Source of the DNA: Thermoanaerobaculum sp.
GTDB taxonomy: Bacteria; Acidobacteriota; Thermoanaerobaculia; Multivoradales; UBA5704
Length of the DNA: 64,000 bases
Assembly: GCA_021154885.1 (NCBI GenBank)
Contig: JAJKHS010000013.1
Coordinates: 62,001 to 126,000, forward strand
Direction: 5' to 3'
Made by a program: the position numbers and the translations under genes. The notes beneath the pieces are model-generated. The model was not told the origin of the DNA. It made no database searches and worked only from the letters and a program-made list of their open reading frames with translations. This document shows, piece by piece, positions 20,267 through 57,462 of this stretch. Every line of letters starts with the position of its first letter. Position 1 is the stretch's first letter.

Positions 20267-20297
20267 GTCCATGGATTCATCGAAAACTGCTTAACGG

Positions 20298-20339
20298 AGG
20301 CAAATAGATAAAGTATATTTGCCTTGTTAGAGGCAAATA
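20298..20339. promoter_or_regulatory. three AGGCAAATA boxes upstream of a broken ATPase gene
   Basis: AGGCAAATA (20298-20306), its inverse TATTTGCCT (20316-20324) and AGGCAAATA again (20331-20339) lie just before the ATG at 20343 in unusually AT-rich sequence. The first two could form an operator or a hairpin. Function is unproven. Confidence 0.35.
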
Positions 20340-20342
20340 AGC

Positions 20343-21103
20343 ATGATAGCCCCTCAACAGGAGATCTTCTCGGTCCTCCGCCAGTACAACCCCTGGTGGG
20401 ATTCCGGGACCATCCGCGATCTCCCTGGCTGGCGCCGGGCGGCTTTCTCCGAGCTGATCCTCTGGCGCGGAGCCTCCAGCGCCGCGAGCGGTCCTGCTCA
20501 GCGGTGCCCGCCAAGTGGGCAAGACCACCCTGCTGCTGCTAGCGGTTCAGGAGTTGCTGGCCCGCGAGGTCCAGCCGGAACGCATCCTGTACGCGACCTT
20601 CGACCACCCCCTGCTCAAGCTGATCGGGCTTGAGCTACGGCAAGGAGATCCTGCGGGGGAAGTTCAAGGTCTATCTCGCCGACCCGGCCATCGCCGGGAG
20701 CGTCCTGCTCAAGGGCCGGGGTCTCCTGGAAGACGAGAGCCGGCTGGGCGCGGCGGCCGAGACGGCGTTCTTCAAGCATGTCTTCGCCCGCTACTACCAG
20801 ACCGGCGTGAGCTTCTCCTACTGGCGGGGCCGCAAGAACCTGGAGGTCGACATCCTCGCCGAGTCCAACCTCCGGTTGATCCCCTTCGAGGTCAAGTACA
20901 GCCGGAGCCCGGTGCTGGAGAGCGACCTCAAGGGGCTCCGCATCCTGTGCGAGGAGGAGGAGATCCCGCGCGGTTACGTGATCACCCGCGAGATCTCCGA
21001 CTTCGGAGTGGTGACGTTCCCCGGCAAGGTGGAAGCGGCGATCCTCAAAATCCCGGCGCCGCTCGCCTGCTACTGGCTCTCGCGGTCGGAAGGGCGGTCC
21101 TGA
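20343..21103 (+). pseudogene. DUF4143-type AAA ATPase, degraded
   Basis: The original protein is spread over three frames: IAPQQEIFSVLRQYNPWWD from the ATG at 20343; then, after a frameshift near 20475, a Walker A segment LLSGARQVGKTTLLLLA; then, after a jump near 20630 that omits Walker B and most of the ATPase core, the C-terminal DUF4143 and nuclease-like part (SYGKEILRGKFKVYLADPAI, RRLGAAAETAFFKHVF-like, EVDILAE, LIPFEVKYS). The family is common in accessory regions. With at least one frameshift and a deletion of roughly 150 codons it cannot be functional. Confidence 0.75.
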
Positions 21104-21166
21104 TGACCGTTAAAATTACGATTCTTCAATGTCCGTCTCGGCGGACACACTGAAAAGGAGCACAGA

Positions 21167-21387
21167 ATGAAGAGAATGACCGGGTTCCTGTTCGCCCTCG
21201 GCCTCGCTGCCACAGCTTGGCTCAGCTCCCCGGTGAAGGCGGCTACGACTTGCAATCCTCCGGCCTGCCTCCGCACGCCGAGCTGCTGCATCGCTCGCCA
21301 GTGCGGCTCCTGGTGCGAAACCCATGGGGGCGGCCCCCCCTGTGCAGCGGCAACGGCAGCGGCGGCTGCTGCGCGTGCCAACGCTAG
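21167..21387 (+). pseudogene. small cysteine-rich secreted peptide gene with a probable one-base deletion
   Basis: After a good Shine-Dalgarno (AAAAGGAG) the ATG at 21167 opens a signal peptide (MTGFLFALGLAATAWLSS) and a Cys-rich mature part (CNPPACLRTPSCCIARQCGS). The frame then enters a run of seven C at 21334-21340. With one more C the protein would end neatly as LCSGNGSGGCCACQR and a TAG at 21385-21387; as written it reads through into the tRNA-Sec fragment. Either a true frameshift or a homopolymer sequencing error. Function unknown; it resembles the Cys-rich neighbour at 21725. Confidence 0.55.
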
Positions 21388-21394
21388 CTTCACA

Positions 21395-21465
21395 GCGGAA
21401 GCGCATGGGAATCGAACCCACCCCCGACGCCGCAAACCGGCGCCGGACAACGGTTTTGAAGACCG
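21395..21465 (-). tRNA. 3' part of a second tRNA-Sec (fragment)
   Basis: 71 bases identical, apart from one extra base in the variable arm, to the 3' portion of the intact tRNA-Sec at 22796-22895: anticodon stem and loop with TCA, long variable arm, T arm and the 3' acceptor strand GCGCTTCC. The encoded CCA is changed and the 5' half is absent on this strand. Not functional as it stands. Confidence 0.85.
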
Positions 21466-21724
21466 GTTGGTCCTCATGCCTTCCTCCATGTATCTGCTTA
21501 GTTCTTCATGGCTTAGCGGTTTGGCCTGGGAAGGCTCCATGCCCTTGTGTCAATCCCGTGTCACCCCCCGCCTACAGCCCCTCGAAGAATCCCGGGAGCG
21601 GGGGCTCTCTAATCTCCCGGCATCTTCTTTCAGCCTCCTTCGGCCTATCTCGTTGACTAGTCGCTATATACAGTCGTAAACTTAGCTGCGCACATACGCC
21701 GCCCCATCTGGGCAAGGAGGCTCC

Positions 21725-22252
21725 ATGAGAAGACTCTCAGTGGCACTCGTGTTCCTGGCCGGAGCGATGATGTTGCCTGGGCTCCTGGTCGCCGAGGACA
21801 TTCTGACCATTTGCGGCTGTCCCCCGAATGCCTGCCCGGCCGGGTACACTGAGTTCGCTTCGGGAACCACTCCGCTCGCCACCGGTTGCACCGGAGGGTG
21901 CGCCCCCGGTGTCACGCCCTGGTGGCGGCAGTGCACCCGTTGCGGGGATGGCACCTGCCGAGCGGGAGTGGAGAGCAATTCGAACTGCGCCACAGACTGT
22001 TGCGGCTCGAACACCCCCTGCAACCAGATTCGTCCCACCACGGCAAACGAGTACTGCCGCAGGTTCAAGACCGACAACGGGTCCTGGGGCAACTGGCAGT
22101 GGATCACTCCGACAAGCTACAACTCGCTATGGTGTAGCGATGCGGTTCACCATCTCTGCCACAGCCACGCCCAATGCTCGACCACCGAATCGATCTGTGC
22201 CGACGTCGTCAACGAGCCGCACTGGAAGACCTTGCCGGCTTCCTGCCCGTAG
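21725..22252 (+). CDS. secreted cysteine-rich hypothetical protein
   Basis: 175 residues from an ATG preceded by AAGGAGGCTCC. A signal peptide (LSVALVFLAGAMMLPGLLVA) leads into a mature part with about 20 cysteines (CGCPPNACPAG, CTRCGDGTCRAG, CATDCCGS, CRRFKTDNGS), most likely disulfide-bonded outside the cell. I recognise no family. It sits between the two displaced halves of a second tRNA-Sec, together with little else, so it may be cargo of a small mobile or invertible segment. Confidence 0.65.
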   Translation: MRRLSVALVFLAGAMMLPGLLVAEDILTICGCPPNACPAGYTEFASGTTPLATGCTGGCAPGVTPWWRQCTRCGDGTCRAGVESNSNCATDCCGSNTPCNQIRPTTANEYCRRFKTDNGSWGNWQWITPTSYNSLWCSDAVHHLCHSHAQCSTTESICADVVNEPHWKTLPASCP

Positions 22253-22652
22253 GCCGGCCGGTCTCAGGCCTGGGATCAGGATTTCAGATTCCAGGCCTGG
22301 TCCACAGCGAGCAGATCAGATGCCGACGCATTCCAAGAGCCTATTGGCATCCTCCCGTAAGCGGATACCGTCCAGACCGGACCCTGCCTGCTCGGCCCGG
22401 GGACGTCAAGACGGACCGTGACAGGCCGAAGCACCACGCCGCAGGCTAAGCTGTCGCGGATGAGAGCGACGAGCTCCCTACGGCCCGGAATCCACCGCAG
22501 CAGAACCCCATAGGACGAACGTCTAGATGAAAGCGCTCGCCGAGCCTGCTGTGGCTGGTTCCCATCTTCCTGTTCGCACCGCAATCACCCTGCTCATCGC
22601 CCTTGGATGGCTGATCCTCGTCTCCAAATTGCACGGTTAGCCGTAGGCTCCC
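22253..22652. other. gap without recognisable gene
   Basis: About 400 bases between the Cys-rich gene and the tRNA-Sec 5' half. The open frames here are short, lack ribosome binding sites and resemble nothing I know. I see no RNA gene or repeat in it. Confidence 0.5.
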
Positions 22653-22688
22653 GGAAGCGCTCGGGGGCTGGTGCCTTCTGCGGTCTTC
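22653..22688 (+). tRNA. 5' half of a tRNA-Sec on the opposite strand (fragment)
   Basis: 36 bases from GGAAGCGC to GGTCTTC match the 5' part of the intact tRNA-Sec (acceptor strand, D arm, 5' anticodon stem) at 34 of 36 positions, but on the plus strand. The match stops inside the anticodon. The acceptor strand GGAAGCGC pairs perfectly with GCGCTTCC of the 3' fragment at 21395. Next comes a hairpin CTGCGTG/CACGCAG. Confidence 0.8.
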
Positions 22689-22795
22689 TCTGCGTGTCAC
22701 TGCCGTGTCACGCAGGGCGTAGATTGCGGGAGGAAGGTAGTCTGAAGCTGAAGTGAACAGGCGTTGCAGGAGCTGTCGTAAACCCTTGAACCAAA

Positions 22796-22895
22796 TGGCG
22801 GAAGCGCATGGGAATCGAACCCACCCCCGACGCCGCAACCGGCGCCGGACAACGGTTTTGAAGACCGCGGAAGGCACCAGCCCCCGAGCGCTCCC
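22796..22895 (-). tRNA. selC: tRNA-Sec (anticodon TCA)
   Basis: 100 bases including the encoded CCA. The eight-base-pair acceptor stem GGGAGCGC/GCGCTTCC, extended D arm, anticodon loop CTTCAAA with TCA, long variable arm (CGCCG/CGGCG stem) and T arm GGGTTCGATTCCC fit bacterial selenocysteine tRNA. It implies that SelA, SelB and SelD are encoded elsewhere. Its 3' 70 bases are repeated at 21395-21465 and a copy of its 5' 36 bases lies inverted at 22653-22688. Confidence 0.93.
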
Positions 22896-22984
22896 GAGGG
22901 GATTCTAGCCCATGCGGACGGCGTTGCGACGGTGATACGCTCCGCGGTGCGGCTCGCCGCCGCCCAGCCCAACGGAGAACCGAC

Positions 22985-45628: not shown

Positions 45629-45865
45629 GAGAGGGTGTCTGAAGCTCGTTCTTCAGGCCCAAAGGGCCGTCCTCCCTCAGCCTGGGGCGCAGCCCCAGGA
45701 ACACGGAATCTAAAACAATTGGAAAGCCCCAACGGGGCGCGATCCGGCCGTTATCTCGCCCTTTCAGGGCTTTGGATTGAGGGGGGCTCCCTTTTTCCTG
45801 GGGCTGCGCCCCAGGCTGAGGGAGGACGGCCCTTCAGGCCTGAATACTTTCCGGACACCCTCTGA
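45629..45865. repeat. long palindromic element
   Basis: The left arm (AGAGGGTGTC, then AAAGGGCCGTCCTCCCTCAG, then CCTGGGGCGCAGCCCCAGG) and the right arm (CCTGGGGCTGCGCCCCAGG, CTGAGGGAGGACGGCCCTT, GGACACCCTCT) are inverted repeats of about 70 bases around a 100-base centre. No gene inside. It is flanked by a truncated copy of the A/B/C element. Confidence 0.8.
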
Positions 45866-56063: not shown

Positions 56064-56217
56064 TTCGGCCCGGATCTACCCGGTTTGACTGATCCTGATA
56101 AGTGGCTTTTTTTCAGTCACTTGCGAGGACATGCCTTGGACCGAGCTTGCCCCGGTTTGCGCCCGGCTGATTGCTATATGATTGCTGGCGGAGCGCTTGA
56201 CTGGAGGACAGAACCCC

Positions 56218-57462
56218 ATGCGCGAGAAGATCACGAAGCGTGCCGTGGATGCCTTGAAGGCCGCGGACCGGGACGCATACCTCTGGGACACCGAAGTCAC
56301 CGGCTTCGGCTGCAAGGTGACGCCGGCCGGGAAAAAGGTCTACGTCTTCCAGTACCGGACGCGCAGCCAGGCGGAGAAGGAGTTCTCTGCGCCGAAGCGC
56401 GTGACCTTGGGCAGGCACGGGCCGCTCACGCCGGAAGCGGCGCGGGCGCTCGCGGCGAAGCTCCTCCTTGAGGTGAAGGCCGGGGGCGATCCCGCCGCTT
56501 CCTTCCGGCCGAGCGAATCGCCGAAGGTCTCCGCCCTCGCCGAGCGCTTCCTCACCGAGCACCTCCCCGGCAAGAAACGCCCGCCCCGCCCCTCGACCGT
56601 CGCCTACTACGAGATCCTCTTCCGCTGCCATGTGCTCCCGGCCCTTGGCGGGAAGCGCGTCGATGCCGTGACCTCCGCCGATCTGGAGCGGCTGCACGCC
56701 GCGATGCGCGAAACTCCCTACATCGCGAACCGCACGCTCTCCCTCCTCCAGCAGGCATTCGACCAGGCGGAGCGCTGGGGCTGGCGTCCGCAGCACTCGA
56801 ACCCCGCGCTCCACATGGAGCGCTACCGCGAGGATCGCCGCGGCGCGCGCAAGGAGGTCATGCTCGCACCGGCGGAGATGGCCCGGCTCCTTACGGCCAT
56901 CGACGAGGAAGAGCCGAGCGTGGGCGCTGTCGCCTGCGCGGTGCTCAGGGTGGTCTTCTGGACCGGGTGGCGGATCGGAGAAGTCCTCGCCCTAGAGTGG
57001 GCGAACGTGGACCTCAAACGCGGCGCGGCGCGGCTCCTCCTTACGAAGACCGCGGCGGAGGAATACCGGCAGCTCCCGACGGAGGCCGTTTCCATCCTCG
57101 AGCGGGTGCCGCGGGTAGCCGGCTGTCCCTATGTCTTCCCCGGCCAGGATCTAGAGGGGCACCTTACGACCGTCCGCAAGCCCTGGGCGCGCATCCGCCG
57201 GCGCGCGGGGCTCGACCGTATTGAGCATCTCGGAGCCTTCCGGATTCACGACCTCCGGCACAACGTCGTGAGCTGGGATGTCTCCCGGGGCGTGCCGCTT
57301 GAGATCGCCGGGAAAAACGTCGGCCACCGCTCCCGCCGCTCGACCGAGGTCTACGCACACTTCGCGCCGGACGCCCTGAAACGCGCCGCCGATGAACGCG
57401 CCGCAGCCATGCGGGCGGCGGTTGAAGGCGAGCATCGCAGCGCGGGACGGGAGGCCGGATGA
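56218..57462 (+). CDS. tyrosine recombinase/integrase (P4-like with DUF4102-type N-terminus)
   Basis: 414 residues from the ATG at 56218 (GGAGG 11 bases upstream). The N-terminal arm domain (LWDTEVTGFGCKVTPAGKKV, RVTLGRHGPLTPEAARALA) and core-binding domain (RPSTVAYYEILFRCHVLPAL) lead to the catalytic domain: Arg in TGWRIGEVLALEW, Lys in LLTKTAAEEYRQLP, HDLRHNVVS and GHRSRRSTEVYAH with the nucleophilic Tyr. This family integrates at tRNA genes. It is next to the tRNA-Ala half, as expected. Confidence 0.95.
   Translation: MREKITKRAVDALKAADRDAYLWDTEVTGFGCKVTPAGKKVYVFQYRTRSQAEKEFSAPKRVTLGRHGPLTPEAARALAAKLLLEVKAGGDPAASFRPSESPKVSALAERFLTEHLPGKKRPPRPSTVAYYEILFRCHVLPALGGKRVDAVTSADLERLHAAMRETPYIANRTLSLLQQAFDQAERWGWRPQHSNPALHMERYREDRRGARKEVMLAPAEMARLLTAIDEEEPSVGAVACAVLRVVFWTGWRIGEVLALEWANVDLKRGAARLLLTKTAAEEYRQLPTEAVSILERVPRVAGCPYVFPGQDLEGHLTTVRKPWARIRRRAGLDRIEHLGAFRIHDLRHNVVSWDVSRGVPLEIAGKNVGHRSRRSTEVYAHFAPDALKRAADERAAAMRAAVEGEHRSAGREAG

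Follow-up and report, generated by a model that had tools for sequence, protein, structure and literature searches.

A probable integrase-less island relic in the tRNA-Sec gene of a Thermoanaerobaculia genome

Genomic islands that integrate into tRNA genes leave a recognizable signature: the attP of the island brings a 3' part of the tRNA, which makes the gene whole again upon integration, and the fragment that was there before is displaced (PMC4383910). Islander catalogues such tDNA islands by an intact tRNA gene with a fragment that reaches the gene end, a downstream position and the same orientation of this fragment, an integrase in the interval, and a length of 2-200 kb; only 4 tandems of three or more are listed, and each member must have an integrase (PMC4383910). 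Cis-mobilizable elements (CIMEs) have lost their integration genes and have kept attL and attR (PMC5704250). The tandem ssrA islands of Dehalococcoides repeat the 3' ends of an RNA gene, and some members have no integration module; they are the nearest described parallel to the cassette arrays reported below rather than to the window, although they differ in their tmRNA target, T-loop site and serine recombinases (PMC3146451).

The window analyzed here is a stretch of 64,000 nucleotides (G000:C13:62001-126000) from an 8.2-Mb genome of 161 contigs (G000), which is probably a MAG. An intact tRNA-Sec gene with anticodon TCA, the presumed integration target, lies at 22796-22895 on the minus strand (ARAGORN; Rfam RF01852, 67.3 bits). 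An earlier note on this DNA had placed a 3' part and a 5' part of the same gene beside it, and all three were confirmed. The whole-genome search showed that the displaced 3' half (21395-21465, minus strand) matches bases 29-98 of tRNA-Sec with 99% identity (E 3e-28), and that the 5' half (22653-22688, plus strand, 107 nt downstream of the intact gene) matches bases 1-36 with 97% identity (E 2e-10). These matches are not due to chance, since the following genome match reached only E 0.2, and apart from the intact gene the genome holds no piece of tRNA-Sec other than these two, both within the window. The 3' half begins exactly at the anticodon stem (CGGT-CTTCAAA-ACCG), which in the intact gene (22853-22867, minus strand) is the presumed crossover core, and stops two bases before the gene end; it has one additional T in the variable arm, and the terminal CA is absent. 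Because each half stops inside the anticodon stem-loop, the 8-mer that the earlier note had pointed out, CGGTCTTC, was found in both. The note had treated the halves as a displaced pair; both are real, but only the 5' half is inverted, and the 3' half is a direct repeat on the same strand as the intact gene, 1.4 kb apart from it. The outer end of the inverted 5' half lies close to the mature 5' end of the tRNA, a few bases away at most.

Paired arm-type sites were found near both ends of the interval. One pair, GTGACACGGGATTGACAC (21547-21564, minus strand), precedes the core of the 3' half by 85 nt, and the other, GTGACACGGCAGTGACAC (22694-22711, minus strand), follows the tRNA 3' end at a distance of 84 nt. 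The pattern scan showed that GTGACAC-N5-TGACAC occurs twice in the window, both times on the minus strand, against 0.05 occurrences expected, and these were the sole exact matches across the 8.2-Mb genome. The arm pairs would flank the reconstructed attP on both sides, as arm-type integrase sites do, and the 3' half is of the kind that a tyrosine-integrase island classically leaves in a tRNA gene. Neither an integrase nor a remnant of one was detected in the interval with the PF00589 profile or by Pfam and PHROGs analysis of its ORFs. A search for the cognate integrase in G000 by way of the arm motif gave no further exact arm site genome-wide, and a related intact element was not found in this genome.

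Like the Islander tDNA islands, the locus has an intact tRNA gene and a same-orientation 3' fragment downstream, which covers bases 29-98 of 100 and falls short of the gene end by the last CA; the anticodon-centred crossover that we place here is the commoner of the two Islander subsites (PMC4383910). The Islander integrase and 2-kb filters would reject the element, because it has no integrase and only 1.4 kb lies between the copies, and the Islander orientation filter would discard a piece such as the extra inverted 5' half (PMC4383910). The element resembles a CIME (PMC5704250) in that the integration genes are absent and att sites are retained at both ends, each with the core, a 3' half and an arm pair, although its ICE or IME ancestry is only putative. 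We regard it as a candidate relic of CIME type, with putative mobility. The pattern as a whole is a relic of a known process, the integration of islands into tRNA genes.

We consider it very likely that an island inserted in tRNA-Sec and then decayed to a 1.4-kb, integrase-less, CIME-like relic. A genomic island with a tyrosine integrase would have entered tRNA-Sec via recombination in the anticodon stem-loop; its attP would have borne a tRNA-Sec 3' half, by which the gene was rebuilt, and the original 3' half would have moved to the far end, at 21395-21465. The integrase gene and most of the island body would subsequently have been lost, leaving a 1.4-kb remnant with both att ends, both arm pairs for integrase binding and one Cys-rich ORF. 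Several points count against this explanation: no integrase or remnant of one was recognized inside, the element is much shorter than typical islands, this genome gave no related intact element, the tDNA-island model does not predict an inverted 5' half, and the assembly is probably a MAG. The suggestion of the earlier note that the locus could be the scar of an element targeting tRNA-Sec finds support in the direct repeat of the 3' half, the pairs of arm-type sites, the low GC content of the variable region, and many parallel cases in relatives, one of them with an integrase.

The variable region extends, at the genus level, from moeA to tRNA-Sec (20267-22652), and the sequence found there in the sister species is unrelated. 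The relic body (21466-22795) has a GC content of 0.62-0.64 against 0.65-0.75 in the flanks; in the GC profile of the window, the dip to these values runs across 20.25-22.75 kb. The Cys-rich secreted protein gene that had been noticed in the segment is indeed present, as an ORF of 175 aa (21725-22252, plus strand) with a signal-peptide-like start and a good ribosome-binding site, AAGGAGG. This ORF had no Pfam or PHROGs match, and the other tRNA-Sec loci of the order have nothing that corresponds to it. It was rejected as a member of a shared cargo family, as it gave a lone weak match among 72 genomes, elsewhere in the order (G062, E 3e-4), and blank Pfam and PHROGs results. A second ORF, for a small Cys-rich secreted protein (21167-21679, plus strand), runs in a frame that enters the antisense of the 3' half, and two paralogues are present elsewhere in G000. 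Between moeA and tRNA-Sec, an AAA ATPase/DUF4143 gene is split across frames (20343-21103); its DUF4143 C-terminal part (20630-21103, plus strand) is pseudogene-like, with the N-terminal part in other frames. Two inverted Acido-Lenti-1 RNAs (RF01687), about 100 bp apart, lie elsewhere in the window, at 45655-45699 (minus strand) and 45797-45841 (plus strand). The selenocysteine pathway appears to be in use, since a SelB match above the curated cut-off was obtained in the genome.

About 50 tRNA-Sec loci of the order were each searched for pieces of their own tRNA-Sec within 1.5 kb on either side. Such fragments lay downstream at 14-15 loci and upstream at one marginal locus. Within this Thermoanaerobaculia order, the gene is a hotspot of insertion. 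A counterpart that still has its integrase at tRNA-Sec itself, G048:C113, encodes a 402-aa integrase (Int_N and Phage_integrase) 132 nt downstream of tRNA-Sec, with a D5-type primase behind it, and carries the arms GTGGCACACTTGTGGCAC and GTGGCACACTCCTGGCAC near the tRNA-side and 3'-half att sites. The motif GTGRCAC-N5-TGRCAC also lies beside a tRNA-Sec 3' half on C163, a separate contig of G048. The G048 island and the window thus share the tRNA-Sec target and GTGRCAC-N5-TGRCAC arms beside both kinds of att site. In contrast to the window, G048 has the integrase and the primase and no inverted 5' half, and its arm-core distance is 121 nt, compared with 85 nt. The tRNA-Sec integrase has homologues immediately downstream of tRNA-Sec, -Ser and -Leu genes, which all have long variable arms (L099, L150-L156), and also, in the window's own genome, of tRNA-Lys (L157, G000:C86). 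At L099, L150-L154 and L157, two tandem repeats of about 6-7 bp were found 65-95 nt after the tRNA (Sec, Ser, Leu or Lys) that the homologous integrase follows, and in most cases they immediately precede the integrase start; at L155 and L156 the integrase is truncated and no repeat pair was seen. In family f4 (L106, L107, L108, L088), tRNA-Sec has a second copy of its 3' part 10-100 bp after it, and the anticodon arm of this copy is altered or missing.

In another family, f3, arrays of 3' halves were found. On contig G026:C26 (L089/L090, 1-26000), seven direct tRNA-Sec 3' halves, spaced 1.1-5.7 kb apart, occupy 20.5 kb downstream of tRNA-Sec, and no tyrosine integrase was found on this contig; shorter or broken arrays are present in G054, G013 and G046. 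The intervals mostly hold one or few ordinary cargo genes, including those for Ser/Thr kinase-TPR proteins, thioredoxin/DsbA-like proteins, PQQ beta-propellers, an outer-membrane barrel and alcohol dehydrogenase-like proteins. A conserved module of about 150 bp precedes each f3 3' half. Nine tRNA-Sec sites have the strict arm motif TGGTGCA-N4-TGGTGCA, and in every one of them exactly 120 nt separate the end of the arm from the core that follows. The module also precedes tRNA-Lys 3' halves in G054, G020 and G013, and a Lys-like core in G048 (L141, L143, L144, L147); at the Lys sites the arm-core spacing was 120 nt in three, and 124 and 130 nt in two others. At L092:3328-3445, a tRNA-Sec 3' half comes immediately after a tRNA-Lys 3' half, an arrangement that suggests a switch of target. 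A viral origin of the f3 att module was considered and rejected, as no viral contig matched. No description of these Thermoanaerobaculia arrays was found in the literature searched, which is not proof of absence.

These arrays bear on a different reading of the window, namely that its element is a non-autonomous cassette, like the f3 arrays, which an integrase from another place in the genome could still mobilize in trans. Neither of the att ends has been lost, nor either arm pair, and the same order contains integrase-less arrays with a fixed att geometry. However, neither the att module nor the arms have another copy in G000, the 3' half carries an insertion and has no terminal CA, and the window holds no second cassette, which makes this reading rather unlikely. 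Still less probable is the view that both halves are plain tRNA pseudogenes, neutral duplications with no link to integration, although the very short element and the integrase that is no longer present would agree with it. Such pseudogenes predict random boundaries, orientation and side, which is not what the 3' halves of relatives show: their downstream bias fits integration and is unexpected for random pseudogenes. In the window itself, the 3' half is direct, lies downstream and starts at the anticodon stem, and the paired arm sites are unique in the genome.

The inverted 5' half was examined by comparison with G001 (Thermoanaerobaculia MAG JAICSG01), a sister species and the nearest named relative of the window's genome. 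The two loci are syntenic, with the same conserved gene upstream and moeA downstream and an unrelated insert. The alignment showed identity at 98/100 positions of the tRNA, 75/109 columns of the 107-nt spacer and 33/38 columns of the inverted 5' half; homology continues through CGGGAG after this half and then stops abruptly, the DNA beyond being unrelated. An assembly artefact is argued against by the unique flanks and the independent G001 contig. G001 carries the inverted 5' half in the same place and orientation, so this half was present in the common ancestor of G000 and G001. The 3' half and the insert are absent from G001, and the two halves are therefore not paired products of one inversion. 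By this comparison, the inverted 5' half is a separate piece, older than the 3' half. The architecture of a tRNA with an inverted 5' half was found elsewhere only in G001 among the genome contigs of GTDB r220, and in no viral contig. A CRISPR or RNA-derived origin for the 5' half was considered, and evidence for it was absent. The stretch 22653-22688 has exactly the sequence of the functional 5' half in G001, from which the window's own tRNA deviates at two positions; the copy has therefore been preserved well in the window's species.

If the locus is a decayed island, the inverted 5' half would be an older inverted duplication of local origin, placed directly past the tRNA-proximal arm pair and already present in the ancestor of G000 and G001. 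It comes right after the arm site in each of the two genomes, at the point where related islands begin their integrase. The most economical reading is that it probably marks the old rearrangement that removed the integrase, and it may have formed, for example, as an inverted duplication through template switching at the anticodon stem.

Two forms of inversion were also weighed. An inversion switch has inverted copies of a full recombination site and a cognate recombinase nearby; between the two 8-mer sites of this locus 8 bp are shared, the right half-core is missing, and no such recombinase was found nearby. In one form, the 37-bp inverted repeats 22652-22688 and 22860-22896 would recombine and flip the 171 bp between them, so that tRNA-Sec changes strand and leaves its promoter; if true, selenocysteine decoding could be turned on and off reversibly in this way. 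In silico inversion of 22689-22859 leaves a tRNA-Sec on the plus strand that ARAGORN accepts, and the identity of 22653-22688 to the functional 5' half of G001, from which the window tRNA is two bases off, looks as if the displaced copy had been selected more recently. However, repeats of 37 bp seldom recombine without a dedicated enzyme, the recombinase is absent, and the inverted copy has no full core. The inverted 5' half has one and the same orientation in G000 and G001 (two assemblies), and the copy has decayed in G001, with 33/38 columns identical between the two copies. A consensus scan gave no promoter match upstream of either 5' half; G001 conserves the TAGAAT-like box upstream of the intact tRNA-Sec, other relatives have a similar one, and no counterpart lies upstream of the inverted 5' copy. 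We regard this flip as very improbable.

The other form had been proposed in the earlier note as an invertible switch, in which inverting 21466-22680 at the 8-mer rebuilds a second tRNA-Sec. The gene so rebuilt would not be a clean tRNA-Sec, since its 3' half carries the additional T in the variable arm and has no final CA. ARAGORN saw only the original gene in the inverted sequence, because of this T; the 5'-3' join was recognized only once it was deleted. Although the 8-mers stand in inverted orientation and the two halves complement each other within one gene, this flip is extremely unlikely and was rejected, since the common stretch is 8 bp long and the 5'-half site has CTTCTCTGCG instead of CTTCAAAACCG in place of the right half-core, no recombinase lies in or near the segment, ARAGORN refuses the rebuilt gene, and in G001 the inverted 5' half persists with neither the 3' half nor the insert present. 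The closest tyrosine recombinase (426 aa, 56182-57462) is 34 kb away and adjoins no tRNA gene.

For the biology of this order, the data showed that tRNA-Sec is recurrently targeted, and that one family anchors integrase-less cassette arrays there. With the f3 arrays, the serial capture of genes at a tRNA by a recombinase acting in trans becomes open to testing.
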